Source of the DNA: a virus
IMG/VR virus record: IMGVR_UViG_3300004807_000102
Span: 1 to 27,121 of that record
Length of the DNA stretch: 27,121 bases
Strand: one strand, 5' to 3'
Made by a program: the position numbers and the translations under genes. The notes under the pieces are model-generated. The model ran no database searches and was not told the origin of the DNA. It saw only the letters and a program-made list of their open reading frames with translations. Positions within the stretch are counted from its first letter, which is position 1. Every line of letters starts with the position of its first letter. Shown piece after piece: positions 3,006-24,580 of this stretch.

Positions 3006-3028
3006 GTTATCACCACATTAATAAAAGT

Positions 3029-3036: not shown

Positions 3037-3044
3037 AACCAAAC

Positions 3045-4241: not shown

Positions 4242-4261
4242 TGCATTTGAATCCCACTAAC

Positions 4262-4269: not shown

Positions 4270-4272
4270 GGT

Positions 4273-5223: not shown

Positions 5224-5226
5224 CGG

Positions 5227-5907
5227 TTACGCCTGTGAAGTTAAATTGGTTAAGGTTTGAATACGAACAGTATAATCAATTTGAATTAAACGGTTTAGAC
5301 TTTTTTGAATTGGGTGAAAAATAACATGCGTAATTAAATTACCAGCATCAACTGTGTTACCATTCCAAACTTTAAGACCAAGTTCGTCAAAAACAAAAGT
5401 ATCATTAAAATTAGTTGTATTATCAAAAGCTTGTTGTCCACTAGGTTCGCCATAATCTAGTGTACATGTTACAAAAATATCACTATAAACAGTTCCAGTA
5501 GTATGGCGAATCTGTATATTATTTCTAGTAGGGTCTAAATTATAAACACTGTTTGGATCAACTACCTTATAATAAGTTTGATTATACAGGGCACTATTGC
5601 TGCCGCTTGTATTTGTTGGAAGATATGTAATAACACCAGTTGGGTCTACACTGGTTCCGCCATTGCCAAACGCCATTTCACTAATCCAACCCTGTCCGCC
5701 ATTACTCATTGCATTAGCTATTGCTAATGAAAAATTTTCATAATGAATTGCATTACGTTTATTAAGTAATACTTCTCCAGTATTTGGATCATGTATTTTA
5801 ATATGTCCCTGCAATAATAAACCGCTAGTTTCATTTGGTTTGTTCATTTTTTTGTTTCCATTAGATTCATTTGTATTTATTGGTTTTTTATCCGCAGTTT
5901 TATTCAT
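5227..5907 (-). CDS. Conserved-type virion/baseplate-associated protein, 226 aa
   Basis: The first 28 residues are Lys/Asn-rich and probably disordered. The globular part begins at 'LLLQGHIKIHDPNTGEVLL', followed by 'NAIHYENFSLAIANAMSNG', 'EMAFGNGGTSVDPTGVI', 'VTCTLDYGEP', 'FVFDELGLKVW' and 'LITHVIFHPIQKSLNRL'. I recognise this arrangement from structural proteins of T4-like marine phages but cannot give it a T4 gene number; gp8 is one possibility I cannot support. Its ATG (5907-5905) overlaps the stop of the 5088-residue gene by one base (TAATG), with AAGAGAA just upstream, so translation is probably coupled. Met21 (5847-5845) is an alternative start, preceded by TGGAAAC and by an AATAAATA site inside the coding sequence. 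A shorter form lacking the disordered leader is therefore possible. Confidence 0.8.
   Translation of the reverse strand: MNKTADKKPINTNESNGNKKMNKPNETSGLLLQGHIKIHDPNTGEVLLNKRNAIHYENFSLAIANAMSNGGQGWISEMAFGNGGTSVDPTGVITYLPTNTSGSNSALYNQTYYKVVDPNSVYNLDPTRNNIQIRHTTGTVYSDIFVTCTLDYGEPSGQQAFDNTTNFNDTFVFDELGLKVWNGNTVDAGNLITHVIFHPIQKSLNRLIQIDYTVRIQTLTNLTSQA
5874..5881 (-). promoter_or_regulatory. Possible internal late promoter in the 226-aa gene
   Basis: AATAAATA on the minus strand lies within codons 9 to 12 of the gene and 26 bases before Met21. In an AT-rich genome this can occur by chance; the distance to a plausible second start makes it worth recording. Confidence 0.25.
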
Positions 5908-8900
5908 TATAGTTCTCTTATAAATTGTGCATAACTTGTTTGACTAGTTTGTAAACTTTCACCGACACCCGTGAATGAAACACCTTGATAAAAACTTTGA
6001 CCTGGGTTAAGCAGAATATTTTTACCAGCATTATTAGTTATATATGTTGGACCTTGGTTGAAATTATTAACTGCGGTCCAGTATGCAGCATTAGTTGGAA
6101 TATTTCCTACAGTTTGAGCAGTAGCTTGATATATTACTCCATTATACGATACAACAGAATTTCTTGGGTATGTTGTTACTTGTGAAAAACTTTTAACATT
6201 TGTATAATCTGGTATTGTAATGAGCACATCACGGCTATTTGGTATTTCCAAAGATGAGCTACCATCAATTATTTGTGTTCCTGAAGAATGTACTTGTGGT
6301 GCACCTGTGCCCGCAGTTCCACGTCGCAATTGCCCAAGACGATTATTAACAACATCTTTGATGCCATATATTATTCGCTCGCCATTAATAAAAACAACAC
6401 CAGCTAAGTTATGTATTGGATCGGGGCTACTTAAATTAGCCACAGTTTCACAATAAATCCATTCATCAGCTAAATTTAAATCAGTTGCCAAGAATGTAGA
6501 TTTACTAGGGCGAACAGCATAATATCTAGTATTATTTTGTAAATCTTTAAAGATTCTATACTCAATTGCTTCTTCACGTATCACATTATTCCAAATACGA
6601 ACGCAGAACACATCACTCGCACTTACATTTAAGCTCGCACTTAATTGAATAGTTGTTGGATTTATTAAAATAAAGTCAACATATGGAATAAGTGGTGTGC
6701 CGCCAGTTGCTCCAGTAATTTTACGTGTAATATATATTTGATTTATATTATATACTGGTGCTGGTATAACATAGTAAGTTCCAAATGGCAAATAAGAATT
6801 TAACTCATTATCAAATCCATACAAGTCAAAGCCAAAAGTATCTATACCATCATCAATTGCAGCAGATGAAGATGTACTACCGCTAAACAATTTTACATAC
6901 ATAGTTGTAGCGTCATGATTGCCTTGTGTCATAACTGTTAATCTTGAATTATTTGGTATAATTAGATTTGGATTTAACCATAATTTATTTTTGTCATAAA
7001 TTTTGAAATCGCTTTGACTACTATCACTAATGATAATTTTGCTTCCAATAATTGGTGCGGTTGTAAATTGAATAACTGGCATTGCAACATTTGTTGGATC
7101 ATGATAAACAGTATAATCAACCCCACGATTGGCAATAACACCATTAACCGTAACTATAATTTCACCATCTGTAATTCCTGCAATATTTTCAACCCACGCG
7201 CTTGTCAAACTAAAATTAGTAGTCAGCCCATCAGCAGTATAGTAACTTTGTTGTGGCGGCAATAGGTCACTGCCGTTTAAACGCACCATTGACCACATGC
7301 TGTAAGGTTGTAGATATTCCTCTGGGTTAGAAAGTGTAAAATTATAACCATTGGGATAAGAAGGATTAGTAATAACAAACGTTTGTTCAAATATTTCGCT
7401 GTAAGCACGAGTTCCTAAAGAAACACCATACAAATGAACTTGAATGTAACTACCTGCTACAGGTGCTGTAGCAAATCTTACTACCAGAGTATTGATACCA
7501 TTTATCAGACTATTCACTAATGTCCAATTACTTACTGCTTGACCATTAACTTTGACATATGCTTGTTGCACTGTAGTAATAACATTATCAGGTATAGCAA
7601 AATCAGTAGTTACTCCATTTGCAACATACTCTTGATCAAACAGCGGATTAATACCGTTACTACCAATCATTAATACATACCAGAATGTACCACGAGTTGG
7701 CGTATAATTAAGATTTACAGTAAATTGCTGCCAATTAACTGTATAATCAACGCCTTCAGCTATAGTTCCAAGAGATTTATCTACAATTAATAGTTTTTCA
7801 ATACCACCTACTGGCAAAGAAACACCAGTAATACTTGGATCAAAACTAAAATATTTTTGACCTTGATATGTTGATATTATAGTTTTTATATCTGCGTTGC
7901 CGCCTTGAACTGGTAGAGTGCGAACTTTAATGTTGAGTGTATCAAATGTGCTTGCTGGAATCAATTCTTCAGGAGCATTGCTACTATAAGTGTCAATGAA
8001 ACCACCACCTAACACCACAATATCTTCTGTTCGTAATCCTAGTCCAGTATCTTTAAATGAACTTTGAATAATTGTGTCTTCGGTTTGATCACCATATATA
8101 TCGATTACGTTTTCTATATTTTTTGTAACATAATCATAAGTCAAAGTGTCATAATTATTGATATCATAATTTGGTAGTGTTTTAAAATTTGGTCCTTTAA
8201 TTTTATTTCCACCGTACTCTATTCCTAACATTAATTGAGCTAGGTCACGACCAGCCATACCTGAAAGGGGAGAATAGTATGCCCATATACGATCAGCAGC
8301 ATTATCTAAAAATAAACCATTATACGGAGTTAAGTTATTAGTATCAAAGAGTAAGCCACTTGTAAAATTGTTTGCTGCAAGATAAGCACTATTTTGATAA
8401 ACAACTATATCAAATTGTGGATAACTGGTTTCTGGATACCATATTTTGACACGTAGCAATAAAAATTTAGTAATATCAAAAGTATTAGTGCTTGTGTGCG
8501 CAACAATTACACGATATGGTTCACTATTATAAACTACTACAGTATCAATAGCATAGTTAGTATTTTTTTGCCAATCTTGAATATTGTTGAAATAAGTGTA
8601 ACGATCAAATTTAATATATGTATCAAGATTACGCACAACACCGTTGTTGAAAATAGCAACAGCAGTTGCGCCGCTGCCTGGTCCAATTACTTTTACTTTT
8701 GCATATGTAAAATCGCTTGTGCTACTAGTTACAGTGATAGTATATATAGTGCCATTTAAGATATGCGGCACTGCGGTTGCACTTTTACCATCACCTTCAA
8801 TAAGAACAGTAGTAGTACCATCATACCCACTGCCACCGTTGCCAACATCAATGCGTACAATTTGATACCCATGGTTTGCAACCCAAGGTTGATATACTGA

Positions 8901-11900
8901 GGTATTTGCAAGAACGCCAGAATCCAAAATATTGCTTTGTTGCGGACTGCGATATTGTTTAATACTAGCATTATAATAGGGTTGTAAGTCAAAGTCTGTT
9001 GTATTTGTTTGTACAATATCTAAATTATTATTATTATCATATTTTGCAATATATTGTTTTAATTTAGTATGATATGGTTTAACTTCTGCAAAAAAATCTG
9101 TTACAATATTTTCTGGTTGTGGAAGATATACTGGCAATTGATCAAGTCCGCGAACTCGATTGTATATGTCAATAAATGAAGTTTTCATTAACCAATCTGT
9201 AGAAATATTTTGTTGCACAATAGTATCAAGCATAAGTGAAATTATCGATTTAAAACTTGTACGATATTCATTGTTTAAAAGATAATCACGAATTATATCA
9301 AATATTTTTGAAAATTCTAGGTTACTGTCTGTATCAAATCCTACAGTTTCAAAACTATTAGTTTGGAATCCTTGTTTTGCAGATTGCAAATCATAAAGAT
9401 TACTATTAAACTGTATTGTTGCATTTTGTTGTGCAAGCAATTCTAAACTGTTGGTTGTTACAACAACAAGTTTCCACCCACCGCTATTACTATTTTTGAT
9501 ATAAATTATATCATTAACATTTAATTTTAGCGTACTGATTTCACTTTCCTTATCGACAGTACTAGTTATTGGTGTTTGGGCATTATAAGCTGAACTATAC
9601 CAATCGCTATAACTCCAATAATTGTTTAAATTATAGGATTGAACTTGGATAGTTTCCCAAATTCTTGTATTTGGAAAAGTAACATTAAGTTTGTATAGAC
9701 TCCAACCACCATTCCAAGATGAACTATCGCTTTCTACTAGAACTAAATCACCGTTATTATATGCATTTTTATCTAGATATCCCAATTCTGTTAAATTTTG
9801 AACTTTAATTTTATAAGAATCTGAATTTGGTAGCGGATCACGGGCGTTAAGTTTTAATATAGTTTCAGGGCGAGTTAATGCCATAGGATAAGTTGCGCAT
9901 ATTTTATTAACTTGTTCTATGTAAAGTTTACGTGCAGTATAATGCCCAACAAAAAGACTTTGGCGTGGACGAATGTCTAAACCGTATTTTTGTTTTTCTG
10001 GAAGTTTTGGGTCTGGAACAATTCTACCGCTGCTATCCTGTCCTGTCAAACTATCATTTAATTTGTTGATAAATTCAGTAGCAACACCAAATTCTGTACC
10101 ATCATCGAACATGGTCCATTCACTGTGTATAAGTTGTGGTTTTAAGGTATTTTTATATTCAATTACTAAATTTGTATTATCACTGACTAAATTTTGCGCA
10201 TTATACAACGCTACTGCACTTGGGCTGATAACGGCTGCAAACGGTTGATTACTAGAACGAGGATTTGCAATACTATTTTGAATTTCTAATGCACTTGGTC
10301 TAATATTATTAATATCTGGTAAAGTTGAATTTTTAACCCAGAAATAATATTTGGTTACCGCTACACCACTTACTGGATCAACTACTACACGAGTACTATA
10401 AACATCGTTAACAGTATAAAGAGGACCACTTAAACGATGTCTTTTTGCATATTCTTTAGGCAATAGATCGCTTTCTACCCATTCGTAAACATTAACAATG
10501 CTTTCTGGAAAAGCCAATCCCCAATAATTAAATTTATTCAGAGTTGTGCCTTGACGATTATCATAATACTTTATAGAATTGGTATCCCACCATAACTTGC
10601 CCACATGCTCCGAACCCCAATTATTTTTAGTATCAAAAGAAAAACTTATAGTACTTGGAACATTGCTATACACTGCTGGATCATAGTTAATTACATAATC
10701 AATATACTTTTCACTACTTTCTGGTAACTGATTATATGCTAAATCAACTACTGGCAGATCAGCTATAAGCTGTTGTGTAGTATCATTATAGATATAAATT
10801 CTATCAATCATACGACTATCATATTCTGCGCCTTGATTTCGAATAGTGTTCCAAATACGATTTTTGTACTGGTTATAATAAACATACATTGAACCAGTTG
10901 GGTTGTTTAACACATGTGCATGTGGTGCTCCCACAAGTATAAAATTATCACTTATGTCAATAGCAGTAGAATATGCATCAAGACTGTTTGCAGAATTGTT
11001 CATTAACATTCTGCCATAGGCAAACAACCCCTGATTAGTAGCAGTTTCAGTTTGACTTGGCTGATACTCAAATACGTGTGCTGCGCCGCTTCGATAAATG
11101 ATACTGTAAAATTGTATAGTTTTCTGATCAAATGTAGTATTTCCACCATCAAACATAGTTACTATTTTAGAATTACCGATAGTTGCCCCAACTACAAGAG
11201 TATTATTATCTGGGCTAATTGCAATATGGTCACCAAAATTTTGTGTATCTTGTAACATTGGGCTGTATAGTTTTTGTGATAATTGCCAAGAAATTATTCC
11301 CATTGCAGCCAGTGGGTCACCATATTCGTTGCGCAATCTTAACTTATTATAATCAACAAGAATATCACTATTAATTTGGACTGTGCCAGTAGCAGTAAGA
11401 TTTGCATTCACGCCTGGAATTGCTGCAGAATTTATATCACGAACACATTGTGCAGCATTGCCACCAGTGAATGTAACTAGCCAATCATTAATGCGAAGTT
11501 TTGTACCACTAGGCATGTTAACATTTACAATAGTTCCAGTTGCAACACCATATTTGCGTGGAATATTAACAAAATGATAGACTGCTCCATTTTGGCTACT
11601 ACTCGTATTAACACCAGTAGCACCAACATAGATATCACAATCATTCTTATTAATTTTTACACTTTGTCCAAATTTTGCATTATTTTGACCAGTATCCATT
11701 GTAGCTATCTTAGTAACAACAAACTGATTAGTTGATACTGCTACTATGGAGCCACTACTTGGTAAACTAGTTACTGTAACGTTATTATTAGAATAATCAA
11801 ATGTGGCTGAAGCAGACACACCATCTATGGTGACACTAGGATAGGTTATAAGATTTGGCGTAGTTATTGTAGTGCTATTTGCAAATGCATTACTTAAGTT

Positions 11901-14900
11901 AAATGTAGCAACACTGCCATTTGCAATGAAATTTTCAACAGTGCGTTCAAAAACATAAGCTTTACCTGCACCAGTATAACTATTTACAAGCGTAGCACTG
12001 CTACTTGGTGCACCAACAATAACTTGACGACCATCATCAGTGCAATGTACTGTAGTTCCAAAACCGATTGATTCTGGATCATCGGTAATTATCTGATTAA
12101 TTTCTTTATAGTAATTTTCATAGGATATGTAAATGTTTACACCATTTGCAGGCGCAACTGCAAATGTGATACTATCTTGACCTGGTGTTCTTATATAATC
12201 AAGGTCTGGGATTTGTAATATGCCACCTGCAAAAACTTTAATATCTCTGCTACCAAGATTTTTTCCTAATGCAGTTGATGGATAATAAAAAGTTGTAGTT
12301 AAACCATCGCCGCTTCTTTTGCTATTGCTGCCATTTACTGTTTGGTATTGATAGACAAAAACTTTACCTACGGTTGGTTCACCAACAAACATCCATTTAC
12401 TATCATTGCTTAGCGCAACACCTCTACCAAATTGACTGTTTGGAGCAATGTTAGAGTATATTCCTATCTTTTGGTTAGCGGAAATCGTTGCATTATTAGT
12501 TAAACCAATAGTATTGTATGGCGAACCTCTGACTATACTAGTAATAACAGTGCCATTTGGAATAACACTTCCTATGATAGGGTTGCCAACAGAAACATTA
12601 GCAAGATTTTGAATTCCACTTGATATAAAATATGCATTTACATTGGGAGTTATTGCTGTCACTGCTTGCGCAATATAACTGTTTGAGGTAACAAAAGTTA
12701 ATATAGCATTATTGCCAGTAAGTACTTTATTTGAAAGAGTAAGAACATGGAATCCGCCAACATTTGGAATTATAATATCGCTGTTAATTTGTGAAATATA
12801 AGTTCCTGATGGTATCAAATTTCCTAAAACAGGCATAGTATTTGCTGTAATACCACTTATACTTTGTGTATTACTAATATAGATATTTGCATTACTGCTT
12901 GTTAAATTTGCATAAAGTGTTTTATAGATACCGGCGTTACTAGTAAGAATAGTTGCAGTTTGATAATAATCAATCGGCGCACTATTAGACATTGCAATAT
13001 AGCTTGGTGTAGCATTAGTAAGATTTGCAATTTTTGTACCGCTTGGAATTCCATTACCGCCAACGCTCATGCCTACTGCAAAATTAGAAAGATTATAACC
13101 GCCTTGCGTAGCAGCATTTGCAGTTGCATTTTGTATTGTAGTATTGCCAATTAGAATAAAAGAATTGCTTGTTGCAACAGGACCACTAATAATATATAAA
13201 TTATCATAGTGAACAGCTTGATTTAATGTAACCGAATCACTAACAACATTTGCTAGATACACTGTTCCTTTTGAAAAAGACGGAGCCGAAATAGCTGCAA
13301 TACCGCTGCTATTAATATCAACATTTGAACCAAAACTAACTGCACGACTATCTGGGGACAGAATTCCATATTCTTGCCAAATATTATCGTTAGATTTTCC
13401 ATAAACAAATGCTTGACCGGTTGTGTTTTTCCCGCTTGCACCAACTATGGCAAAGCCCTGTGTGCTGTTTATTTTAATACTACTACCAAAATAATCACTT
13501 GGGTTGGTAAAAACTGGACTACGATATCCATCATATGCCCAACTATCTGTATTTTGTTTTACTTCCCAACCAGTTGGACCATTGTCAATATAAACAATTT
13601 CACCTAAATCCCAACCACGAACAGGTGTAAACTTAGTCCAATCTGTAATTGTACTATAACGAACATTAGTTAGCTTAAAGAGCGTTGCGCGTAAACTTCC
13701 GCTAGCAACCGTAATGTTATTAAGAATTTTTACAGTAAATGTATTGCCCGATGCGCTGCTTATGCGATAAAAACCACTTAAATCAAGAACACCAGTAGAA
13801 CTACTTGCATTTACAATTGTGCCATTCTTAATCATAATATAATCATACTTGACTAGATTATGTGCTGTATTTGTAGTAAAAGTTAATTCACTTGGAGATG
13901 TTTGGTTAACATTTGTTAAGTAAACTGCTCCTGTTCTGCTTAAGCGATATACTCCCCATTGATTGGCGGTATCTGCGGCAATCCATATTTTACTTGCTTC
14001 ACCTAATACTGGGTTTAAACCACTAATGTTATAAATTTTATTAATATCATACACACTAGCATTAGCATCTAATGGGCTTACTGGACCAGCATATGGAATT
14101 ATTTGTTTAGAAATTTCAGTTTGTGCAAATGGTGTGGTTGTATAACTCTGTGGAATTTGCGGAGTCAAAAGCAAATCACTTGGCTTAATTGAGTTATATT
14201 CAGTATTACGAGAATCATTTTGATTAATAAATTCAAACAAATACTGACCATTTATTGTATTTGAATTGCCAATATTAAACTCAATTTTGCTAATATTATT
14301 TGTGCCACCATAATTGCCAAGTTTAATTGCCCATTGTTCTACAAGAGTAATGTCACTATCAAGATTAGTCTGATTATTGCGCAAGAAAGCATTGATAACC
14401 GCTTGAGAACCTTTTTGGTTTATCATGCCCAAATAAAATTTATACTGAGTGGTTAAATCTGAGCCAAGGTCCGTAAAATATTGACGTTGTTGGAAACCAG
14501 TTGCATGTTTACCTAGTAAATCTGCTGCACTGTTAAGATCAGCATTATCTGGATCATAAAAATTAGTAAATTGGGCAGCACCACTTGCCATATTTGGAAT
14601 AAGTTGTTTGTTTAGCAAAGTGCCATTAATTAGATACCAATCACTGGCAACAAAATTTGCCGTACCTGGTATAAAATTTTGTGCAGCATAATATTGTGTT
14701 TTGAATAGTACAATATCGCCTTTATAGTAATCAGTAAATGTTTGCCAATTTGGAATTTCGCTTACATTTACAAAGAAACCAGGCGCATATAAACTACCAT
14801 TCCAACCTTGTGTTTTAATTCCATCTAGTCGTAAACGAAATTGGCGACTGCCAACTTGTTCATCATATAAGATGTCATTGAACACAGTTTGATTATCAAA

Positions 14901-17900
14901 TATAATGGCATGCTCATATTGTACAATAGAAATATCTAATAAGTGAATTCCTTTGCGTGTATTTTTTAAATCAATAACAAAACTATTATCTTCACGATAT
15001 ACACGATAATCTTTGCCAGAAAGAGTTGTTCCATCACTATCTACAACTTTAGTATAATTGTTTGTATTTGTTATCTTATCAACAACACCAAATGGACTAG
15101 AAAATTTGATACTTGTACCGGCAGGCGTTAACCCAATGACTGTATTGTCTCCCCAATTTTGCTGGTCCCAGAATAAAAATTCTTTTGCAGCAAGAGTCCA
15201 ATCAGCTACAGTTTGAGTATTTGGAACATTGTCTGTAAAGACAAAGCCTTGATTTACAAGATGACGCCCGTAACTTACTAGAAAATCAACTGTTTGTTGA
15301 GCCGTTGCAAAAAATGTACCATATGGATACGTAACAATATTATTACTGCTATCTTCATAAATTACTGCACTGCTATTGCCAACACGAATAGTAAAGTTAT
15401 TGCTGCTTACTCGGCTAGGTACGGTAAGAAAATATGGTCGTAGCTTATCAAATCCACTTACTTGGTATCCACCTGTTACTTTTTGCACTACAACTGCGCT
15501 GTATATTGCACGAGAAACAGGTGCACCTTTAGTAACTTTAACTTTATAATTTTCGCTTGGAATTAAAATACTTACATTTTTACTTTGTGGGCTTACTTGA
15601 TCTGCAGTTATGGTTAAGTAACTTTGATCAGTAAAGCCAGCAATTTTATAAACAAGATTAAATGTACTGTTATTTGCTACATCAATCCAATTTATTGTAG
15701 GATCAAGATTATTACTTAAAAGATAATCACGAATCCAAACATTTATGCCCGGTATATACTGGTTTGGTCCGCTTACACTATAATCAAATATACGACTATT
15801 ACTATTAATATTAATAATTTGATTTAATTTTGAGTTGAACTGAATATCACGTGTATTATATTTTAGTGCACAATATTGCGCTGGTCTTGCTAAGAACCAA
15901 GCAAGTTGAATCGCAAAAGGATATGCACTGCTACGACGCCATGCAGTTTCTTGTGGACTTTGATCTCCTATAGTCCAAGCATTTCCGCCAGTATTAGCGT
16001 CATATGTGGCAATAACCGATTCTAGAGGAGGTAATAGATTGCCATGGCTATCAACTGGGATTATTTTACTTAAACCAGGTCTGCTGTAACTTGTGTTAAT
16101 ATAGGTTGCATTTGGATTACCATTATAGATTAACCCAAGTTCTAAATCGCCCCATAGTAATTTGTTTTCGCTGCTATATGGCGCTGGTCCATAACGAACT
16201 TGCCACCAACTTGGTTTTTGTACAAATCCTAACATTTCCCAAGGATGGGTATGTGGACGATCTGTGTCATAAAAATATTTGTATATACCACGCCAATAAC
16301 CTGGAACATTATTTCCAAACAAACGATCTATGCCAGTGGCATAATTGAAACTAAAAAAATCACCAGTAAGAGTATCGTTTTTAAAAATATCTACATTGTT
16401 TTGATTTGCCCAAGTAAGATAACTGCCACTTAGCAACTGAGTCCATTCAGCAAAACTATAATCAGTTGATCTAAATGCACCTGGTTCTACACTGCTTAAA
16501 TCATAATCACTGTTATTAGCATAAGTTACAGCGATATTATTATAAACACGTTTTTCAAATTCAAGTAAAATATAATCACGGTAGTCGCCCCAAGAGACAG
16601 TATAACTGCCATCATGACCAATAATCACTGTTTGTGGAGTAAGATAGGTATTGTCTTCAACAATCTCAGGTTTAAACGCTGGATAAAGACCAAGTTTTGT
16701 TGGAGTTGCTGGTACATTGCAACCAGTCGTGTCACTATATTCATAAACTGTAATTGTGTCAAGTCTTGATAGTGCAAGACTGCTAGAAAGAGTGATAGAA
16801 AGATCATTCAAAGTATAGTCTATACCATTAAGCAATAGTGTATTATTAAGATAAACAAGAACTGCTTTATAATTTTTTGACTTATTTGTATAGTTGTTTA
16901 CTAGGTTATATGAACGATAGTTGGTATTTTGAACAATATATTCATTAACAATATAATTATTTCCACCAGCAATCATATCAGTATACGCAAAATTTTTGTT
17001 ATAATTTGCAGCTTGAGCAAATTGCAATAGTATACTATCAACGCAAGCACGGTAATTATGTGGATCACTAAATTCTAAATTGTTAATAAAATCTAGCAAC
17101 TGAGATTTGAAATTTTGATAAGAATTACTGGCATGGGTAATAGTAAGAAATGGATCAACATCGCTATTTGATAACATAAGTGCCGCTGGTCGCAAACTTG
17201 CGCTATGTTGTAATAACTTACCACCTATATCGCTATAATTTAAATCACGGAAATTATTAATACCAGCGGGATTGCCAATCAACCCAACAGTATTATTGCC
17301 AATTTCAATTAAATGGTTACGAATTTGACCTAATGTAATTGTGCTAAATTCTGTATTTTCGCTGTTATTAACTAAATTTTTTGGCATAGTATAGGTTTGA
17401 CCATATACACTGCTTGTTCCATTTATTTTAACAAATAATCTATCACCACTTTGTAAATCATTATTAAATTTGATTACGCTAGTAGTTGAACTTGTTTGCA
17501 ATTGGAAATTATTAGATGTTTGTAATACTCCATTTACATACACAAATAAGTTATTTTCATAATAACTGTTTGTATAAACTACGCCTAAATCAAAATTATT
17601 ATTTTTGATATCGGTTGCAGTAAATGTTTTTGTAATAAATTGTTTACTTTTATCTGAAACCGCTGCCCAACCATTAGCAAAGTTGTAATTTTGCCAACCA
17701 ACTATGATTGCAGCAAAACCATGATTAACAGACAATTGTGTGTCAACATTATTCAAATTATAATTAAAAGTATCTGTAATATAATAATTATCAAATACTA
17801 TATCGCCAATGTTACCAATATTTTGATAAACTAAAGGAAAACCAAGTTCTTTATCTGCTGCTGTTGATGTTGAGCCTACTGCATAACCAAATAAACGACT

Positions 17901-20900
17901 GCCAGCAAAGTTGCTACTTGGATAAACATCTTTGTCAGCTAAACTATAGCCATTAATATCAACAAGATCAAATAGCGGAAATTGTGGGCGACTGTTACGA
18001 ACTTGTGCTAAATTCCACGTGTTGTTACTATAATAAAATACATTTCCCTGATTGATATCGCCTTCCATAGCAACAATATTATCGCCATCATTAATTGTCT
18101 GAACAGGAATCAAATGAATTTGAGTTGCACTGTTATCAAAATTAATTGTAGTATTAACTGCAATATCACTTGTTAAATTATTACTAATATAAACAATATT
18201 ATTTGTAGTATCAATGCTCTTAATAGTTGTATGCGGAGGTATTGCATTTGTATAAATTGCCCAATAATCGGTGTTTAATGGCAGTATGCCATATGAATTT
18301 TGTGTGGCAATAAATGTAGTGCCATTATAGTGAACAATTTGACCAGTGGTATAAGATGTAATATCACTATAAAGTGCACCAAAGCTTACTAGCTGACCTA
18401 TCGCTAGGTTACCGATATCACAATATAACTTATTTGTGCCCACTGCGCTGAAAGCATAGGTATTTTTATTTGAGTAGTTAGGTGTTACTCCGCTGCGAAT
18501 ATAATTAAGCTGAACTTGGTAAATCGTGCGACGAATAGTTGGATCATTTTCATTTACAAACAAAACTGTAGTGCCATCAAGTAGCTGAATACCATCACTA
18601 TTATAAACACCGTTTGTTTTTAATGAATAACTGTTTTGCCCTTCTACTTGCTCAAATGCATTTGTTGTAATGCTGTCAATACATGTTACACTGCCTGCAT
18701 AATTTGTGCCATAGTTCCATAATTTTAAATCAGGTTGAAATTCTACAATTGGGCGTTGAGCTTGTTGATTAGCATCAAATACAAATGTTTGATTAGTGTA
18801 ATTTGCTGCAGCTTGTAATGTATCACGGTGGAACCAACGATTGTTTCTGGTCCAACCATTTCCATCTACACTGGCACGATTGATAGTGATATAATCTTTT
18901 TCTTCAGGGCTATTAGTAGTTCCATCAAATCCACCAATGCCATATGGTCTATCTTCGCCAAAAAAATCACCTGAATTAGTATTGATAACTTCGGGCGTTA
19001 CTAAACCATTATAATCTATAAGTTTAATAGATGTACCTACGCCTTCAATGACATATGTGTTATCTTTGTAACTTGTTGGAGTGACAAGACCAGTAAATTG
19101 AATCTTTAAACCATTTGTAAACTGCACACCGTTTGGGCTTGTATAAACACTGCGACCTATAATATCATCTACATTTAATATACTTGAAGGATCAGCATCA
19201 ACTAAACGTATTTCTCCATAGATAAGTGGATCATCTGCGTCTACGTAATATAGAATGTTTTTTGATGCACTAAGGGTTGGAAATTTTGTAATATTAGATG
19301 CATTGTCTTTGAAACTATACACGTGACCATAGGTGTCACCCTGTCCTACAAGCGTTTTATATCCGGCCGCCCAATCAGTTACATACACCAAATTCATATT
19401 TCTATAATTTGGATTTGCAACGCTTTGATAGAAATTTATAATATTTGATCCAACAGTAGGAATAGTTTGATCTAGTGTTACAATATTTCCATAAGATATA
19501 TTATCAAATACTGCTCCATCCCATGGAGATGCATCTGCATCATATCCTGTATCGCTAGTACTTGCCGAAACCGTAGTGCCAACCAATATTCCAGTTCCGA
19601 TAGCTGCTTGTGTTACTAATATTTTAGAAATTGCAGCAGAATCTGAGATGTAAAAAAGATTTGTAGGAGATGTTACATTAGTATTATAAGTTACGACAGC
19701 ATCATTAGATGAAGCTGAAGTTGTAGCGTTACTTAAGGTAACAATTCTACCAGAAATATTAGTTATAGTTGTACCTTTTGGTATTCCAAATCCTGTAATT
19801 AACTGTCCAACTCCAACATTAGCTACGCTAGCAAGTTCTGCAGAATTAGAACCACTTGTATAAAATGCAGTAGTTGTACCGCCTAATGAAAGAGCAGTAG
19901 CTGTGGTAGATACTACGCTATCTACAGAATAAACTCCAACAGTAATATTATTACTTGCGCTGATTGTTTGATTATCAATTATAAGAGTGTTGCCTACTAC
20001 TTGTGCAATTCTAGTGCCATTCTTAATGCCAGAACCTACTATTAATTGACCAGCATATATGCCTGCTGTACTTGAAACAGAAATACTGCTTTGTCCGCTT
20101 GTAAATGACACTCCAGAAATTTTAGCAATTGTAGAACCAGTATACAATACTTGAGTATTGTCGATAGAAATTTGCCAAATTCCACCTCTTTGATTTACTG
20201 GAACGTTGTCCCACTCAACATCACTGTTAATTACAATATATTTTTTGTCAAAAGCACGAACACCATCTAAACTATAATTTAAAATGAAATTATCATAATT
20301 TTGATTTTGTAGTAGTGAATATGGAACATCAACAATCATATCAACTGATTGTTGTAAATTTGGCAAACTTAAAAGATAATCTTGTGCAGTAGAAAGTGGC
20401 ACATTAAATGTAATTGCGCCATTGCTAACACCATTGTTATCTAATCCTAGAATATCACGAGTAGAAATGTTAGATTGTGTGCTGCTTAAGCCACTAGTGC
20501 CAATCTCAGTTTGAATATAAAATTTGTGTCCAGTTTGCCCTAAATTAAATGTATAGGTTCCACCTCTTACTAGTGTAAGTGTTGGATTGATAGCATCTTT
20601 GTACCCATCAATTGTATAACCACTTTTGCCAATACTTGCACTTTGTAATTCTGTTTGATTATTGGCAACATACGCAATACGATGAAAATTATAAGATGCT
20701 TGTAAAGGCAATCCACCAGCAGTTACATCTACAGTAAAAGGTCCAGTAGGAACCCAGTAATATTGACGATAATTAGTAATTTTATCAAGATCAATGAATC
20801 CATTGTAACTATAATAACGATTAGTGAACAGGCGTTGATGATTATTGTTTAATCCGCCGTCTCCGCTTATCTGGTTAAGCAAATCTGGATAGTTATATAC

Positions 20901-21173
20901 ATTATCAATCTTATAGGTATTGCCACCATTTTGAGTTTTCTTAATTACAACACCTGGTTCTAATTGATAAAATTGACTGTAAGAATCGCCTTCTGCAATA
21001 TAATAATCGCTACTTTTAAAAACTGGGCTTTGATCTTGTTGACCAATATATCCGTAAATCTTCTTTAATGCTGGTTCTTCAATTAATTGATCTACTGTAG
21101 CATTTAAAAAACGTTTATTTGTAAGAGTTTGAAAAACACTAGGTAGAAAATTAATACTTTTACGCTTAGTCAT
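5907..21173 (-). CDS. Giant modular baseplate/tail structural protein, 5088 aa
   Basis: A single uninterrupted frame follows gp6, the place of gp7 in T4-like phages (T4 gp7 is 1032 residues). Residues 1-150 ('FLPSVFQTLTNKRFLNATVD', 'YGYIG', 'YQLEPGVV', 'DLDKITNYRQYYW') match large structural proteins of marine T4-like phages. So do 'RGGTYTFNLGQTGHKFYI' (203-220), 'YITINRASVDGNGWTRNN' (761-778), 'RPIVEFQPDLKLWNYG' (807-822), 'HPWEMLGF' (near 1645), 'WNGSLYAPGFF' (near 2124) and 'IRPRQSLF' (near 3735). Seven FG-GAP-type repeats lie at about 2555-3440. Carbohydrate-binding-like units start near 930, 2143, 4201, 4245 and 4995. Near the C-terminus are 'DGLTTNFSL' fibre-type units (4512-4720) and 'GQLRRGTAGTGA' (near 4946). 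No signal peptide or membrane segment is visible. AAGGTG lies four bases before the ATG and overlaps the gp6 stop. Probably wedge assembly plus host-surface contact; the latter is inference. Confidence 0.9.
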   Translation of the reverse strand: MTKRKSINFLPSVFQTLTNKRFLNATVDQLIEEPALKKIYGYIGQQDQSPVFKSSDYYIAEGDSYSQFYQLEPGVVIKKTQNGGNTYKIDNVYNYPDLLNQISGDGGLNNNHQRLFTNRYYSYNGFIDLDKITNYRQYYWVPTGPFTVDVTAGGLPLQASYNFHRIAYVANNQTELQSASIGKSGYTIDGYKDAINPTLTLVRGGTYTFNLGQTGHKFYIQTEIGTSGLSSTQSNISTRDILGLDNNGVSNGAITFNVPLSTAQDYLLSLPNLQQSVDMIVDVPYSLLQNQNYDNFILNYSLDGVRAFDKKYIVINSDVEWDNVPVNQRGGIWQISIDNTQVLYTGSTIAKISGVSFTSGQSSISVSSTAGIYAGQLIVGSGIKNGTRIAQVVGNTLIIDNQTISASNNITVGVYSVDSVVSTTATALSLGGTTTAFYTSGSNSAELASVANVGVGQLITGFGIPKGTTITNISGRIVTLSNATTSASSNDAVVTYNTNVTSPTNLFYISDSAAISKILVTQAAIGTGILVGTTVSASTSDTGYDADASPWDGAVFDNISYGNIVTLDQTIPTVGSNIINFYQSVANPNYRNMNLVYVTDWAAGYKTLVGQGDTYGHVYSFKDNASNITKFPTLSASKNILYYVDADDPLIYGEIRLVDADPSSILNVDDIIGRSVYTSPNGVQFTNGLKIQFTGLVTPTSYKDNTYVIEGVGTSIKLIDYNGLVTPEVINTNSGDFFGEDRPYGIGGFDGTTNSPEEKDYITINRASVDGNGWTRNNRWFHRDTLQAAANYTNQTFVFDANQQAQRPIVEFQPDLKLWNYGTNYAGSVTCIDSITTNAFEQVEGQNSYSLKTNGVYNSDGIQLLDGTTVLFVNENDPTIRRTIYQVQLNYIRSGVTPNYSNKNTYAFSAVGTNKLYCDIGNLAIGQLVSFGALYSDITSYTTGQIVHYNGTTFIATQNSYGILPLNTDYWAIYTNAIPPHTTIKSIDTTNNIVYISNNLTSDIAVNTTINFDNSATQIHLIPVQTINDGDNIVAMEGDINQGNVFYYSNNTWNLAQVRNSRPQFPLFDLVDINGYSLADKDVYPSSNFAGSRLFGYAVGSTSTAADKELGFPLVYQNIGNIGDIVFDNYYITDTFNYNLNNVDTQLSVNHGFAAIIVGWQNYNFANGWAAVSDKSKQFITKTFTATDIKNNNFDLGVVYTNSYYENNLFVYVNGVLQTSNNFQLQTSSTTSVIKFNNDLQSGDRLFVKINGTSSVYGQTYTMPKNLVNNSENTEFSTITLGQIRNHLIEIGNNTVGLIGNPAGINNFRDLNYSDIGGKLLQHSASLRPAALMLSNSDVDPFLTITHASNSYQNFKSQLLDFINNLEFSDPHNYRACVDSILLQFAQAANYNKNFAYTDMIAGGNNYIVNEYIVQNTNYRSYNLVNNYTNKSKNYKAVLVYLNNTLLLNGIDYTLNDLSITLSSSLALSRLDTITVYEYSDTTGCNVPATPTKLGLYPAFKPEIVEDNTYLTPQTVIIGHDGSYTVSWGDYRDYILLEFEKRVYNNIAVTYANNSDYDLSSVEPGAFRSTDYSFAEWTQLLSGSYLTWANQNNVDIFKNDTLTGDFFSFNYATGIDRLFGNNVPGYWRGIYKYFYDTDRPHTHPWEMLGFVQKPSWWQVRYGPAPYSSENKLLWGDLELGLIYNGNPNATYINTSYSRPGLSKIIPVDSHGNLLPPLESVIATYDANTGGNAWTIGDQSPQETAWRRSSAYPFAIQLAWFLARPAQYCALKYNTRDIQFNSKLNQIININSNSRIFDYSVSGPNQYIPGINVWIRDYLLSNNLDPTINWIDVANNSTFNLVYKIAGFTDQSYLTITADQVSPQSKNVSILIPSENYKVKVTKGAPVSRAIYSAVVVQKVTGGYQVSGFDKLRPYFLTVPSRVSSNNFTIRVGNSSAVIYEDSSNNIVTYPYGTFFATAQQTVDFLVSYGRHLVNQGFVFTDNVPNTQTVADWTLAAKEFLFWDQQNWGDNTVIGLTPAGTSIKFSSPFGVVDKITNTNNYTKVVDSDGTTLSGKDYRVYREDNSFVIDLKNTRKGIHLLDISIVQYEHAIIFDNQTVFNDILYDEQVGSRQFRLRLDGIKTQGWNGSLYAPGFFVNVSEIPNWQTFTDYYKGDIVLFKTQYYAAQNFIPGTANFVASDWYLINGTLLNKQLIPNMASGAAQFTNFYDPDNADLNSAADLLGKHATGFQQRQYFTDLGSDLTTQYKFYLGMINQKGSQAVINAFLRNNQTNLDSDITLVEQWAIKLGNYGGTNNISKIEFNIGNSNTINGQYLFEFINQNDSRNTEYNSIKPSDLLLTPQIPQSYTTTPFAQTEISKQIIPYAGPVSPLDANASVYDINKIYNISGLNPVLGEASKIWIAADTANQWGVYRLSRTGAVYLTNVNQTSPSELTFTTNTAHNLVKYDYIMIKNGTIVNASSSTGVLDLSGFYRISSASGNTFTVKILNNITVASGSLRATLFKLTNVRYSTITDWTKFTPVRGWDLGEIVYIDNGPTGWEVKQNTDSWAYDGYRSPVFTNPSDYFGSSIKINSTQGFAIVGASGKNTTGQAFVYGKSNDNIWQEYGILSPDSRAVSFGSNVDINSSGIAAISAPSFSKGTVYLANVVSDSVTLNQAVHYDNLYIISGPVATSNSFILIGNTTIQNATANAATQGGYNLSNFAVGMSVGGNGIPSGTKIANLTNATPSYIAMSNSAPIDYYQTATILTSNAGIYKTLYANLTSSNANIYISNTQSISGITANTMPVLGNLIPSGTYISQINSDIIIPNVGGFHVLTLSNKVLTGNNAILTFVTSNSYIAQAVTAITPNVNAYFISSGIQNLANVSVGNPIIGSVIPNGTVITSIVRGSPYNTIGLTNNATISANQKIGIYSNIAPNSQFGRGVALSNDSKWMFVGEPTVGKVFVYQYQTVNGSNSKRSGDGLTTTFYYPSTALGKNLGSRDIKVFAGGILQIPDLDYIRTPGQDSITFAVAPANGVNIYISYENYYKEINQIITDDPESIGFGTTVHCTDDGRQVIVGAPSSSATLVNSYTGAGKAYVFERTVENFIANGSVATFNLSNAFANSTTITTPNLITYPSVTIDGVSASATFDYSNNNVTVTSLPSSGSIVAVSTNQFVVTKIATMDTGQNNAKFGQSVKINKNDCDIYVGATGVNTSSSQNGAVYHFVNIPRKYGVATGTIVNVNMPSGTKLRINDWLVTFTGGNAAQCVRDINSAAIPGVNANLTATGTVQINSDILVDYNKLRLRNEYGDPLAAMGIISWQLSQKLYSPMLQDTQNFGDHIAISPDNNTLVVGATIGNSKIVTMFDGGNTTFDQKTIQFYSIIYRSGAAHVFEYQPSQTETATNQGLFAYGRMLMNNSANSLDAYSTAIDISDNFILVGAPHAHVLNNPTGSMYVYYNQYKNRIWNTIRNQGAEYDSRMIDRIYIYNDTTQQLIADLPVVDLAYNQLPESSEKYIDYVINYDPAVYSNVPSTISFSFDTKNNWGSEHVGKLWWDTNSIKYYDNRQGTTLNKFNYWGLAFPESIVNVYEWVESDLLPKEYAKRHRLSGPLYTVNDVYSTRVVVDPVSGVAVTKYYFWVKNSTLPDINNIRPSALEIQNSIANPRSSNQPFAAVISPSAVALYNAQNLVSDNTNLVIEYKNTLKPQLIHSEWTMFDDGTEFGVATEFINKLNDSLTGQDSSGRIVPDPKLPEKQKYGLDIRPRQSLFVGHYTARKLYIEQVNKICATYPMALTRPETILKLNARDPLPNSDSYKIKVQNLTELGYLDKNAYNNGDLVLVESDSSSWNGGWSLYKLNVTFPNTRIWETIQVQSYNLNNYWSYSDWYSSAYNAQTPITSTVDKESEISTLKLNVNDIIYIKNSNSGGWKLVVVTTNSLELLAQQNATIQFNSNLYDLQSAKQGFQTNSFETVGFDTDSNLEFSKIFDIIRDYLLNNEYRTSFKSIISLMLDTIVQQNISTDWLMKTSFIDIYNRVRGLDQLPVYLPQPENIVTDFFAEVKPYHTKLKQYIAKYDNNNNLDIVQTNTTDFDLQPYYNASIKQYRSPQQSNILDSGVLANTSVYQPWVANHGYQIVRIDVGNGGSGYDGTTTVLIEGDGKSATAVPHILNGTIYTITVTSSTSDFTYAKVKVIGPGSGATAVAIFNNGVVRNLDTYIKFDRYTYFNNIQDWQKNTNYAIDTVVVYNSEPYRVIVAHTSTNTFDITKFLLLRVKIWYPETSYPQFDIVVYQNSAYLAANNFTSGLLFDTNNLTPYNGLFLDNAADRIWAYYSPLSGMAGRDLAQLMLGIEYGGNKIKGPNFKTLPNYDINNYDTLTYDYVTKNIENVIDIYGDQTEDTIIQSSFKDTGLGLRTEDIVVLGGGFIDTYSSNAPEELIPASTFDTLNIKVRTLPVQGGNADIKTIISTYQGQKYFSFDPSITGVSLPVGGIEKLLIVDKSLGTIAEGVDYTVNWQQFTVNLNYTPTRGTFWYVLMIGSNGINPLFDQEYVANGVTTDFAIPDNVITTVQQAYVKVNGQAVSNWTLVNSLINGINTLVVRFATAPVAGSYIQVHLYGVSLGTRAYSEIFEQTFVITNPSYPNGYNFTLSNPEEYLQPYSMWSMVRLNGSDLLPPQQSYYTADGLTTNFSLTSAWVENIAGITDGEIIVTVNGVIANRGVDYTVYHDPTNVAMPVIQFTTAPIIGSKIIISDSSQSDFKIYDKNKLWLNPNLIIPNNSRLTVMTQGNHDATTMYVKLFSGSTSSSAAIDDGIDTFGFDLYGFDNELNSYLPFGTYYVIPAPVYNINQIYITRKITGATGGTPLIPYVDFILINPTTIQLSASLNVSASDVFCVRIWNNVIREEAIEYRIFKDLQNNTRYYAVRPSKSTFLATDLNLADEWIYCETVANLSSPDPIHNLAGVVFINGERIIYGIKDVVNNRLGQLRRGTAGTGAPQVHSSGTQIIDGSSSLEIPNSRDVLITIPDYTNVKSFSQVTTYPRNSVVSYNGVIYQATAQTVGNIPTNAAYWTAVNNFNQGPTYITNNAGKNILLNPGQSFYQGVSFTGVGESLQTSQTSYAQFIREL
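10854..13511 (-). other. Seven FG-GAP-type repeats, predicted seven-bladed beta-propeller (residues ~2555-3440)
   Basis: Inside the 5088-residue protein, seven repeats follow the FG-GAP_2 pattern 'FG..v.is.dg..lvGAp....g.vyvy'. The leading Phe-Gly falls at residues 2562 (FGSSIKINS), 2614 (FGSNVDINS), 2915 (FGRGVALSN), 3038 (FGTTVHCTD), 3168 (FGQSVKINK) and 3313 (FGDHIAISP). The seventh has Ala-Tyr instead at 3400 (AYSTAIDIS). Matching second motifs are VGAS, ISAP, VGEP, VGAP, VGAT, VGAT and VGAP. Each ends in a strand such as QAFVY, TVYLA, KVFVY, KAYVF, AVYHF, AHVFE and MYVYY. Seven is the blade number of integrin-alpha-type propellers. Blade spacing varies from 52 to 301 residues because of inserted modules. 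Confidence 0.75.
12444..13184 (-). repeat. Three 'G-IP-GT' repeats inserted between propeller blades 2 and 3
   Basis: Residues about 2664-2910 of the giant protein hold three copies of a 70-90-residue unit. Their cores are 'GGNGIPSGTKIANL' (from about 2705), 'GNLIPSGTYISQI' (from about 2784) and 'GSVIPNGTVITSI' (from about 2868). Each is preceded by Asn-rich strands and followed by a strand such as 'IAMSNSAP', 'LTLSNKVL' or 'IGLTNNAT'. The protein-level repeat is clear; the DNA copies have diverged. Confidence 0.65.
19434..20111 (-). repeat. Related 'G-I-GT' repeats near the N-terminus of the giant protein
   Basis: Residues about 355-580 contain two clear copies and one degenerate copy of the unit also found between propeller blades 2 and 3. 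Clear cores are 'GQLIVGSGIKNGTRIAQV' (about 375-392) and 'GQLITGFGIPKGTTITNI' (about 456-473), followed by 'LIIDNQTISAS' and 'VTLSNATTSAS'. The third copy, 'AIGTGILVGTTVSAS' (about 524-538), has a 20-residue interruption before 'IVTLDQTI'. Confidence 0.6.
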
Positions 21174-21177
21174 ATTA

Positions 21178-21183
21178 CACCTT
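21178..21183 (-). promoter_or_regulatory. Ribosome binding site of the giant gene
   Basis: AAGGTG on the minus strand lies four bases before ATG 21173-21171 and overlaps the stop codon of the gp6-like gene. This fixes the start and suggests that translation of the giant protein is coupled to gp6. Confidence 0.65.
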
Positions 21184-24100
21184 AATAAGTTATCATAGTT
21201 GTATTAATACCAGCACTATTAATACCACTTAAAACACCGTTCACCACTTGAATATTATCGACAGTAGCCGCACTTAAGAAAATTTCGTTTGGTTGGCAAC
21301 GAATTTCATATAGACTACCAAATTTAGCATTTGTATCTGCAGGCAACAAAATCACGCTGCTAATATACCCATTTAATTTTTCATGCAAATAACCAGATAA
21401 TTCACTAAAGTAGAAAGTATCACCAAAATTCCAATTATCTAATGCAAAGTACATGTTAATTGCATCTACGACACGGCTTTTTATTTCTGTATCACTTAAA
21501 GTTGTTGTAGAATTTTTTACTACTTGAATTGTTGCACGTAAACTAGGAGTTGCTTTGTTACCAAATAGCAACTTGTAAATACCAGCATTTAAAATCATCT
21601 CATCACTTATCATTTTATAATTAAACAATCCGCCATAACTACTGTTTAACGTAACGCTATCTAGGTCTGCTGGTTTTGCAATTGTGCCTGTATTATCAAT
21701 TACATAATTTCTATACGCTTCATCATAGCTACGAGTTAACACATATGTATCTATTAAATTTGTAGCAGCAGGATCAATTCTTCGAGTATTTTCTGCATTA
21801 TGTTGATATTCAAATATTAAATTTTGACGACCTGTATAAACCAAATAATTGTTGCTAACATTTACAACAGTGTTAATACCGTTTATACTTTGAATTTGAT
21901 AAAATTGTTGATCACTTGTAGCATAAAAAAGTGCATTTATTGGAAAGTTATTGCGCACATAATTGATTGCTGACATCGTAGAATATGCAATACTTACTGT
22001 GCCAATATCTAGTAATGAATAACGAATCAAGTTATCTGAATCGGTGTATAATTTAAAGAAAATATAACCAGTATTACTTGTTATTTCGCTGAATATATAT
22101 GGATCAGTGGGCAATCCACTTGTTTGACTAATTGGATAGGTAACATAGATTCTAGTTGTATCATTATACCCATCATTCATAATCATATTTTTGTATATGT
22201 TTAAGTTTACATTGCTTGTAACATTGCTGTTAACATCTAATACACGAATATTATCCTTTACCAGTGTATTATTTCTTGCATCATAAATTGCAGTTGGAGC
22301 AACACTGATAAAGCTTACCTGTGAACTGCTACCAAAAATATAATCAAGTTGACGATAGGTAGTAGTATATCTGATACCATCAGTGTTAAAAATTAATAGC
22401 CAACTTGTGTCATTAGCACTATACTGTGTTGTTAAATCAAATGGATTAACCTTATCAACATTTGTAATTGGAATAATTGTCCATGGGTCACGAGCACTTG
22501 TAGTTTTGGTATAATCATATACAAGTGCAAATTCTGTTTTATTTAAAATATAACTTACCATAGTATTAATAGTAGCATACTGCAGCGTATTTGCAAATGG
22601 CGGATATACTTGGCTAATAATAGCACCAGTTGGTATATTTTCACTAATAGTTACTGCACCAATTTTACGACCAGCAACCAACACAGTTGTTGCTCCGCTG
22701 CCTGTGATGCTCTGTATACTTGCCCAAATAACGGTTCTATCACTATCCACAAGAGGAGTTCCGCTTATAAGTGTATTGTTTGCATCAAAATAATAACCAG
22801 TAGGAGCAACAAATTTAATTAAACTGTTAATCTCTAGATATTTTCTATAGGAAGAAGCAGGCGCACTGTTTGCAATAGCAAGTGGAGTATTTGTTGTATC
22901 GCTAGGGCTTAAGAAAAATCCAGTAGATGTGCTTGTATCACTGGTGCTACGACTCCAAGTAGTAGGAGCAAGAATTGTAAAATCTAATGGCGTCCAATTT
23001 TCATAGTAGAAATGACGCATTGGATAATCTTCAATTGCCTTCATTACCTGTTCATTGATAGCGTTAATAATATCATTTCGACTTGTATAGCTAAAATTAA
23101 AACTACTAGTATGTTGATTCTTATAAAATACACCATCTTTTGCGTATAAATCAGTGCTTGTATACTTTCCAGTGGGGTCAGTAATATCAAGACCACGACT
23201 TACACCGCTAGCAAAACGATTTACAGATTTTACTTTAACAATATCACTATAATAGGTATATGGAAATACATTATAATCTTCGCCATTAACCATGCGGTTT
23301 TGTGTATAATAGGCTTGTGGCGCTTTTTGTTTGATTTCATTTGTCAAATCACGTCGCGAAGAATTACTTACAGTATATTGCAGTGAGCAACTAATAGTAA
23401 AGGTTTCAGTAGTGCCACTGCTACTAATATAAGGCATAGCTATTGAAATATTACTCATATCACTAGGTGTAATACGATAGGTTAAACCATTACTAACACG
23501 ATAATATGCACGATAATTGCCTAACGGAATCTCACTATAACTGCCGTCACCAAATATTAAATCAATTTGATCATTGATACGAGTATTAACACTGTATAGT
23601 GTACGTATACCACGAGCAACACTGTTATAGATAGCATTGCTGCCTGCAGTGCTTGCTACCTGTGTCCATTCAGTGCCAATTGTTCCATTTGTAATTTCAT
23701 ACATCCAAACATCGTTATTATTAATATTTGCAGTATTAATAGCAAATACACGATTTGCTACTTTTTCACTAATTGTAAAATCTGTAGAATTTAAAACACC
23801 TTGTTTAAAGAATACAAAAAATCCTGTGTTAGCACTAGCATTACCACGACTGTCATTTTGATAAACAATACCAAATTGACCACGGGTACCGGGATCATAT
23901 TCAGTAATTGTATCGGTTGTTAATATATTAGCACTCACGCTTTCAAAGTTTGTAGCCACTCCATTAACAAGAGTACTAAAAGTAAACACTGGCAGTATAG
24001 TATTTGGAATAGCAATATTATATTGCTCGGTACGAATGCCATTAATTATTTTGCTAGCATATGGCTTGCCAACTTTTTGACTAGAGGAGATTGCAGCATT

Positions 24101-24580
24101 TAATATTTGTGTGAACTGGCTTGCCCAATTAGCATTGTTAGGATCATTCCAATCAACTTTAACTCTGCTCAAGTTATTGCCATTAATATCTTGAATATTT
24201 TCGCTTGTGCTTACACTATTAATTTTTAAAAAGCCACTAGCAGCACGGTTACGATTTGGGCTATAATTTAATTGTTTTACTAGTTTCAGGACGCTATCAC
24301 GACGTTCTGCAGTTTCTAAGAAATTTTCACGAGCATTTAGGTCTGTACGAAATGCAACACTTTGTGCTGTAAATGCAACTAGATCAAGCAGTGCTACATA
24401 CTCACTGCTTTCAATAAAGTCATTAAAATCTTCTGCATAGTAGGTCTTGATATAATCAACCATAACCTTACGCAGCGTCTCAAAGTCATAGCTTTGAAAA
24501 TCTGCATTCGAAAAAGTTGTATATATTGTTTTCCAATCTTCTGCAGCAAATATATTTGTTTGGCGTGTACCAGCACTCAT
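21182..24580 (-). CDS. 6: Baseplate wedge protein, gp6-like, 1132 aa
   Basis: In T4, gp6 forms the ring that links baseplate wedges and belongs to the baseplate J-like family. The N-terminal part (about 30-120) has the family signature: 'YDFETLRKVMVDYIKTYY', 'DFNDFIESSEYVALLDLVAF', 'AFRTDLNARENFLETAERRD', 'VKQLNYSPNRNRAASG'. The C-terminal part (about 1000-1132) has 'VVDAINMYFALDNWNFGDTF', 'YFSELSGYLHEKL', 'FGSLYEIRCQPNEIF' and 'NIQVVNGVLSGINS', as in gp6 and other J-like baseplate proteins. It is well above the 660 residues of T4 gp6, with the extra length in the beta-rich middle. It follows gp25 with a 46-base gap that holds a late-promoter-like AATAAATA and an AAGGGT ribosome binding site. 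The order gp25-gp6 is that of marine T4-like phages. Confidence 0.92.
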   Translation of the reverse strand: MSAGTRQTNIFAAEDWKTIYTTFSNADFQSYDFETLRKVMVDYIKTYYAEDFNDFIESSEYVALLDLVAFTAQSVAFRTDLNARENFLETAERRDSVLKLVKQLNYSPNRNRAASGFLKINSVSTSENIQDINGNNLSRVKVDWNDPNNANWASQFTQILNAAISSSQKVGKPYASKIINGIRTEQYNIAIPNTILPVFTFSTLVNGVATNFESVSANILTTDTITEYDPGTRGQFGIVYQNDSRGNASANTGFFVFFKQGVLNSTDFTISEKVANRVFAINTANINNNDVWMYEITNGTIGTEWTQVASTAGSNAIYNSVARGIRTLYSVNTRINDQIDLIFGDGSYSEIPLGNYRAYYRVSNGLTYRITPSDMSNISIAMPYISSSGTTETFTISCSLQYTVSNSSRRDLTNEIKQKAPQAYYTQNRMVNGEDYNVFPYTYYSDIVKVKSVNRFASGVSRGLDITDPTGKYTSTDLYAKDGVFYKNQHTSSFNFSYTSRNDIINAINEQVMKAIEDYPMRHFYYENWTPLDFTILAPTTWSRSTSDTSTSTGFFLSPSDTTNTPLAIANSAPASSYRKYLEINSLIKFVAPTGYYFDANNTLISGTPLVDSDRTVIWASIQSITGSGATTVLVAGRKIGAVTISENIPTGAIISQVYPPFANTLQYATINTMVSYILNKTEFALVYDYTKTTSARDPWTIIPITNVDKVNPFDLTTQYSANDTSWLLIFNTDGIRYTTTYRQLDYIFGSSSQVSFISVAPTAIYDARNNTLVKDNIRVLDVNSNVTSNVNLNIYKNMIMNDGYNDTTRIYVTYPISQTSGLPTDPYIFSEITSNTGYIFFKLYTDSDNLIRYSLLDIGTVSIAYSTMSAINYVRNNFPINALFYATSDQQFYQIQSINGINTVVNVSNNYLVYTGRQNLIFEYQHNAENTRRIDPAATNLIDTYVLTRSYDEAYRNYVIDNTGTIAKPADLDSVTLNSSYGGLFNYKMISDEMILNAGIYKLLFGNKATPSLRATIQVVKNSTTTLSDTEIKSRVVDAINMYFALDNWNFGDTFYFSELSGYLHEKLNGYISSVILLPADTNAKFGSLYEIRCQPNEIFLSAATVDNIQVVNGVLSGINSAGINTTMITY

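Follow-up and report, generated by a model that had tools for sequence, protein, structure and literature searches.

A predicted 5088-residue structural protein beside the baseplate wedge genes, assigned to a family of giant proteins in Rak2/Atu_ph07/PA5oct-like jumbo myophages

The stretch of viral DNA analysed here (27,121 nt, hereafter the window) carries on its minus strand a single gene for a protein of 5088 aa and 561 kDa, directly after the gene for the baseplate wedge protein gp6. By its sequence, this giant is assigned to phrog_10938, a family of Rak2/Atu_ph07/PA5oct-like jumbo myophages. We consider it probable that the giant is the outer-wedge (BW3) protein in the position of T4 gp7, with two conserved cores as rim and inserted modules that would dock fibres or touch the host. 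The domains of the giant and its neighbouring genes are as follows.

5907..21173, minus strand: giant wedge-associated structural protein, 5088 aa, matched by phrog_10938 on its three thirds
20256..21173, minus strand: conserved N block, residues 1-306, with LPxxFxTxTNxKFLxATLDQLxxxP...GYIG at its start
19404..20156, minus strand: recent insert, about residues 340-590, with 'VGxxIxGxGIPxGTxI'-type segments, mostly missing in the ~70%-identity relatives
18204..18362, minus strand: CBM5/12-like module 1, residues 938-990
17427..17624, minus strand: DUF4183-like beta-sandwich repeat, residues 1184-1249
13854..16733, minus strand: core 1, residues 1481-2440, ~960 aa, of near-constant length in the family
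14622..14762, minus strand: CBM5/12-fold module within core 1, residues 2138-2184, Z 7.6 to 8fqc_P1
10884..13493, minus strand: insert slot with seven FG-GAP_2-like segments (PF14312) and beta domains between them
8634..10859, minus strand: core 2, residues 3439-4180, conserved
8643..8858, minus strand: GGSGY..PTV module, residues 4106-4177, common to cyanophage giants and resembling part of T4 gp18
8316..8588, minus strand: tandem CBM5/12-like modules, residues 4196-4286 (Foldseek, Pfam)
5910..6626, minus strand: C-terminal block, residues 4850-5088, with the fifth CBM5/12-like module at residues 4990-5038
21182..24580, minus strand: gp6-like baseplate wedge protein (BW2), directly upstream of the giant (phrog_10646 E 5e-276, phrog_219 E 1.5e-17)
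24627..25013, minus strand: gp25-like baseplate wedge protein (BW1; PF04965 E 2.4e-8)
5227..5907, minus strand: conserved 226-aa protein, phrog_11259, directly downstream of the giant

The frame opens with an ATG at 21173, eight bases from the end of gp6 at 21182, contains zero internal stops and takes up 56% of the window, which establishes on the minus strand the uninterrupted frame that the first-pass annotation had described. The chance of such a frame staying open is ~10^-157 at its base composition. Codon-position GC is near-even across all 500-codon blocks (e.g. 0.43/0.40/0.16). Against four relatives of ~70% identity, dN/dS was ~0.1-0.5 per 300-codon block, except in block 301-600, which is largely missing from these relatives; dS was near saturation in this comparison, making the values rough and their direction alone meaningful. 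An 86 kb contig from a separate IMG/VR record (L010) has the giant at the identical length of 5088 codons, with 260 nucleotide differences from the window, 193 of them at third positions. The giant is a real single gene, and purifying selection acts on almost the whole of it. That it is a real protein and no chance fusion, as first proposed, is supported by the even codon signature, the selection throughout, the L010 copy and the family match on all thirds. An assembly artefact or a fusion of neighbouring genes might be suspected in a 27-kb IMG/VR record. Misassembly is rejected because L010 has the giant at equal length with mostly synonymous differences, and similar intact single genes occur in dozens of contigs and eight isolate genomes. 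We give an artefact next to no chance; at the level of the family it is already refuted.

The family phrog_10938, annotated as 'virion structural protein', matches the giant's three thirds with E 2e-129, 5e-107, and 1e-69; an NCBIfam search gave no match on the giant. Relatives recovered by tblastn were solely jumbo myophages: PA5oct-like phages, Atu_ph07, Phosso, SCTP-2, Vibrio 2.275.O, and the Rak2-like group. Each of the eight isolate loci covered holds a single gene of 3326-4555 aa in the giant's slot (RaK2 3326, GAP32 3341, CBB 3340, PA5oct 3857, SCTP-2 3807, Atu_ph07 4449, Phosso 4555, and AP-J-162 4455 aa), the last of which has been reported as a 'structural protein' at this location (PMC11242549). 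In seven of the eight, gp6 was recognised upstream of the giant with gp25 above it. SCTP-2 was the exception: its gene upstream of the giant (L005 17272-24001; record 139271-148561) encodes 3096 aa, went unrecognised as gp6 in a tblastn search of the part covered, and is perhaps a wedge gene that has fused or diverged strongly. The isolate proteins and the window giant have in common their sequence, the wedge-adjacent slot, and the order N block-core 1-core 2, but the window giant is 500-1800 aa longer, is ~25-30% identical to them over the cores, and differs in that seven FG-GAP-like segments occupy its middle slot. CBB_236 (3340 aa) was detected in virions with 21 unique peptides at 7.7% coverage (PMC5259590), and the PA5oct homologue is marked ESI-MS/MS in its record; these two are ~25-30% identical to the window giant, and their peptide coverage is low. 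With gp25-gp6 upstream and homologues in CBB and PA5oct virions, the earlier description of a structural protein in the baseplate cluster at the T4 gp7 position holds.

At least 329 IMG/VR stretches encode a relative of giant residues 1601-2300, which are part of core 1. Complete single-frame giants of 3690-6086 aa were found in 49 IMG/VR loci (L010 included), the longest being L036 (6086 aa, locus 3812-22072). tblastn found gp6 in 71 IMG/VR loci, usually no more than tens of bases from the giant start. From relatives such as a 338 kb contig (L027), we infer that the window's genome is that of a jumbo phage. Four bacterial MAG contigs (L100-L103; Pelagibacter, TMED41, Porticoccaceae, and Endomicrobia) also carry relatives of the giant and are probably phage contigs binned with bacterial MAGs.

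The 58 complete members comprise 49 from IMG/VR, the eight isolate proteins, and the window giant; they run in the order N block, spacer, core 1, insert, core 2, tail, with three slots of variable length alongside the constant N block and two cores. Residues 1-150 of the N block occur in all relatives, and the block has only 60 matching records in the phage collection. Core 1 spans ~830-1140 aa among the 58 members, and ~100 of its residues are invariant across 46 sequences. The middle slot ranges over ~95-1500 aa (~95-100 in Rak2-like phages, ~1500 in Atu_ph07 and Phosso), a length that computes as negative where the core 1 profile also matches a second CBM-like module downstream; in the window, this insert spans about residues 2440 to 3439.

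One lineage (L066, L070, L071) encodes the giant as two genes, the first of ~2270 aa and the second of 1268 aa in L070 and L071, while in L066 the second frame leaves the contig end. The split represents two sequence types, not three, because the second gene has the same sequence in L070 and L071. It lies exactly at the middle (propeller) slot, between window residues 2537/2542 on one side and 3441 on the other. Over its first part, the protein of these split relatives is ~35% identical to that of the window, whereas the complete relatives at ~70% identity are all unsplit; close relatives with several genes here, named earlier as grounds for doubt, are thus matched only by this distant lineage, and there by two genes. 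The short gap between the halves in L066 and L070 holds a AGGATAAATACATA-like sequence, which resembles a T4-type late promoter or ribosome site. A further break, in L078 (2742 + 1916 aa, 16-nt overlap), was rejected as a real split, being found in a lone contig with unbroken genes in its near relatives; it is more likely to reflect a frameshift or an error in sequencing.

In the middle slot, Pfam returned PF14312 (FG-GAP_2) on the giant's middle third with E 7e-13, and seven FG-GAP_2-like segments (residues 2561, 2613, 2914, 3037, 3167, 3312, and 3400) each matched PF14312 with E 5e-4 to 0.07, singly under the Pfam cut-off. Inspection by eye found no canonical DxDxDG calcium loops in the seven segments. 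We read them as a putative inserted seven-bladed propeller; a literature search found no report of FG-GAP in jumbo phage tails. The giant also has five CBM5/12-like modules (PF02839 E 1e-9) and six DUF4183-like copies altogether, the others lying at residues 1410-1478, 2946-3036, 3080-3178, 4515-4580, and 4637-4720.

Modelled with AF2 from 46 and 30 sequences respectively, core 1 and core 2 reached pLDDT 68 and 72; the models are mediocre, with matches to solved structures confined to small modules. In Foldseek and VIA-align searches with both models, CBM5/12, an Ig-like piece, and the gp18-like module alone stood out, and the remainder was barely covered; no BW3-like wedge fold (a bundle with two gp6 chains) was matched by the core models, large parts of which were barely covered. 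The CBM5/12 module of core 1 aligned with the N-terminal part of the Milano tail-spike gp124 (8fqc_P1; 45 aligned, rmsd 1.0) and the GGSGY..PTV module with the T4 sheath gp18 (3fo8; Z 6.9, 72 aligned, rmsd 2.6). Z values of this size are often seen between unrelated folds; we retain the CBM5/12 call on account of its agreement with Pfam. Foldseek paired the tandem CBM5/12 modules with a Vibrio chitin-oligosaccharide deacetylase (COD; E 5.8e-4). PDB sequence searches with the halves, core 1, and the N block returned CBM5/12 modules or noise only, and a Pfam scan of 35 N blocks returned noise only. The baseplate-anchoring ends of the Milano tail spike and the 7-7-1 fibre have an alike small chitin-binding-type fold (Z 7.3-7.6), but unlike either of them the giant carries five copies along one chain. 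The long fibre of phage 7-7-1 is anchored to the baseplate through its first 120 residues, and the CBM5/12 fold match falls at residues 73-119 of a 7-7-1 fibre chain. Because the matched region serves as an anchor there, a purely structural role is possible for the giant's modules, which by this analogy need not bind sugar.

The phrog_11259 protein downstream of the giant is present in 49 IMG/VR loci and in five of the eight isolate loci. Further downstream (1415-5223, minus strand), the genes resemble related fibre-type proteins: three have in common a GQLWWD/GQLWY N-terminal motif, two have a 'TAKYADLAE'-type C-terminal domain, a similar tail occurs in a short GTG-start ORF, and the gene at 4273-5223 has a C1q match (E 5.5e-5). 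Upstream of gp25, a 661-aa protein (25028-27013, minus strand) contains a BPSL0067-family domain (NF033857, E 3e-17, residues 207-290) and is possibly a tail-associated cell-wall amidase, as judged from this domain; the domain protein was matched in 15 IMG/VR loci. The coding part of this gene includes a 48-bp tandem repeat at 25542-25692 (3.1 copies, 80% matches).

Both jumbo phages and marine cyanophages were already known to carry giants in a slot adjoining the wedge genes, and the window giant is a long, module-rich new member. The cyanophage post-gp6 giants, like that of the window, directly follow gp25-gp6. With lengths of 6817 aa in ACG-2014d, 6378 aa in S-RIM2, and 3032 aa in S-CAM1, and with the L036 relative at 6086 aa, the size of the window giant is not exceptional. 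In S-CREM2, the inner wedge proteins are followed by one of 1937 aa that was detected in virions and has been given the label of intermediate wedge protein (PMC10665884). Yet the window cores have no detectable relation to the cyanophage giants, and small modules alone are in common: the core 1 profile gave a best E of 0.004 over a short stretch, the C-terminal tile showed a weak common module, and the GGSGY..PTV module, present in about a dozen copies in the ACG-2014d and S-RIM2 giants, has one clear copy in the window. The first-pass annotation had recognised motifs of marine T4-like structural proteins along the chain. This is right for the ~75-aa GGSGY..PTV module and the weak C-terminal module and wrong for the main body, which shows no such relation, and descent from those proteins is not upheld, since the family belongs to Rak2-like phages and related jumbo myophages.

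The gene order gp25-gp6-giant points to BW3. In the Milano baseplate, the wedge is built as BW1-BW2-BW3, and receptor-binding proteins attach to BW3 in previously studied baseplates (PMC10811340). Gene order is the basis for the BW3 role, because no relation to T4 wedge proteins was found and sequence searches gave no solved relative of the cores beyond CBM5/12. T4 gp7 (BW3) occupies the same post-gp6 position at one fifth of the giant's length, without a profile match: the giant has no phrog_964 match, and among the matches listed, all hhalign tile matches to gp7 were below 1% probability. When 13 giant tiles were compared by hhalign with T4 gp53, gp5-gp12, Wac, and five HTVC008M proteins, the GGSGY module was all that matched. 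Profiles of gp7 and gp8 had no match in ten jumbo genomes, and that of gp53 matched weakly in seven of the ten. The gp7 negative has limited weight because the same profile also misses S-CAM1 and matches ACG-2014d no more than trivially.

Placed in the third, outer wedge position (the T4 gp7 slot) of a Rak2/Atu_ph07/PA5oct-like jumbo myophage, the giant would most likely act as a scaffold. Its conserved N block would dock on the gp6-gp25 wedge, and cores 1 and 2 would form the baseplate rim. The variable modules between and after the cores (propeller, CBM5/12-like, beta-sandwich) may project outward, where they would hold fibres or touch the host surface. That the giant takes on the tasks of several wedge and fibre proteins is plausible, because gp7 and gp8 profiles are unmatched, gp53 is weak in seven of ten genomes, and one lineage splits the gene. 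As a more tentative extension, possible although doubtful, one chain of ~560 kDa may replace gp7 and gp8 and perhaps fibre-docking proteins, with cores that might represent novel folds of the wedge; at the split slot, an integrin-like propeller would serve as an exchangeable cassette facing the receptor.

The giant could instead be mainly a fibre or whisker, an adhesive chain of beta domains with one end on the baseplate, the true gp7-like wedge protein being encoded elsewhere and unrecognised. Its richness in N/T/S/G and repeated beta modules would fit such a chain, as would the branched fibres or whiskers on Rak2-like phages (PMC5259590, PMC3622015) and the match of its CBM5/12 folds to fibre and spike proteins. 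However, cores of near-constant size (~960 and at least 360 aa) with many invariant residues are unusual for fibres, the position beside gp25-gp6 is fixed, and the gp7 profile finds no match in ten jumbo genomes, all of which make a fibre or whisker unlikely. A polyprotein-like product, cut during assembly into separate wedge and fibre proteins, is still less probable, and we regard it as improbable outright. The two genes of one lineage, split between the cores, imply that the halves can work as separate chains, and chain length is left unsettled by the CBB and PA5oct mass spectrometry, but no cleavage evidence was found, and the RaK2 tail proteins discussed ran at their predicted mass, the giant not being among those named (PMC3622015).

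An outer-wedge scaffold remains our preferred reading of the giant, a member of a family that occurs in isolate jumbo phages and in metagenomic virus stretches, yet is annotated only as 'structural' or 'hypothetical'. Its constant cores, exchangeable insert slot, and natural split mark out concrete domain boundaries that expression work and cryo-EM can use, and the family offers a route to asking how jumbo baseplates are assembled.
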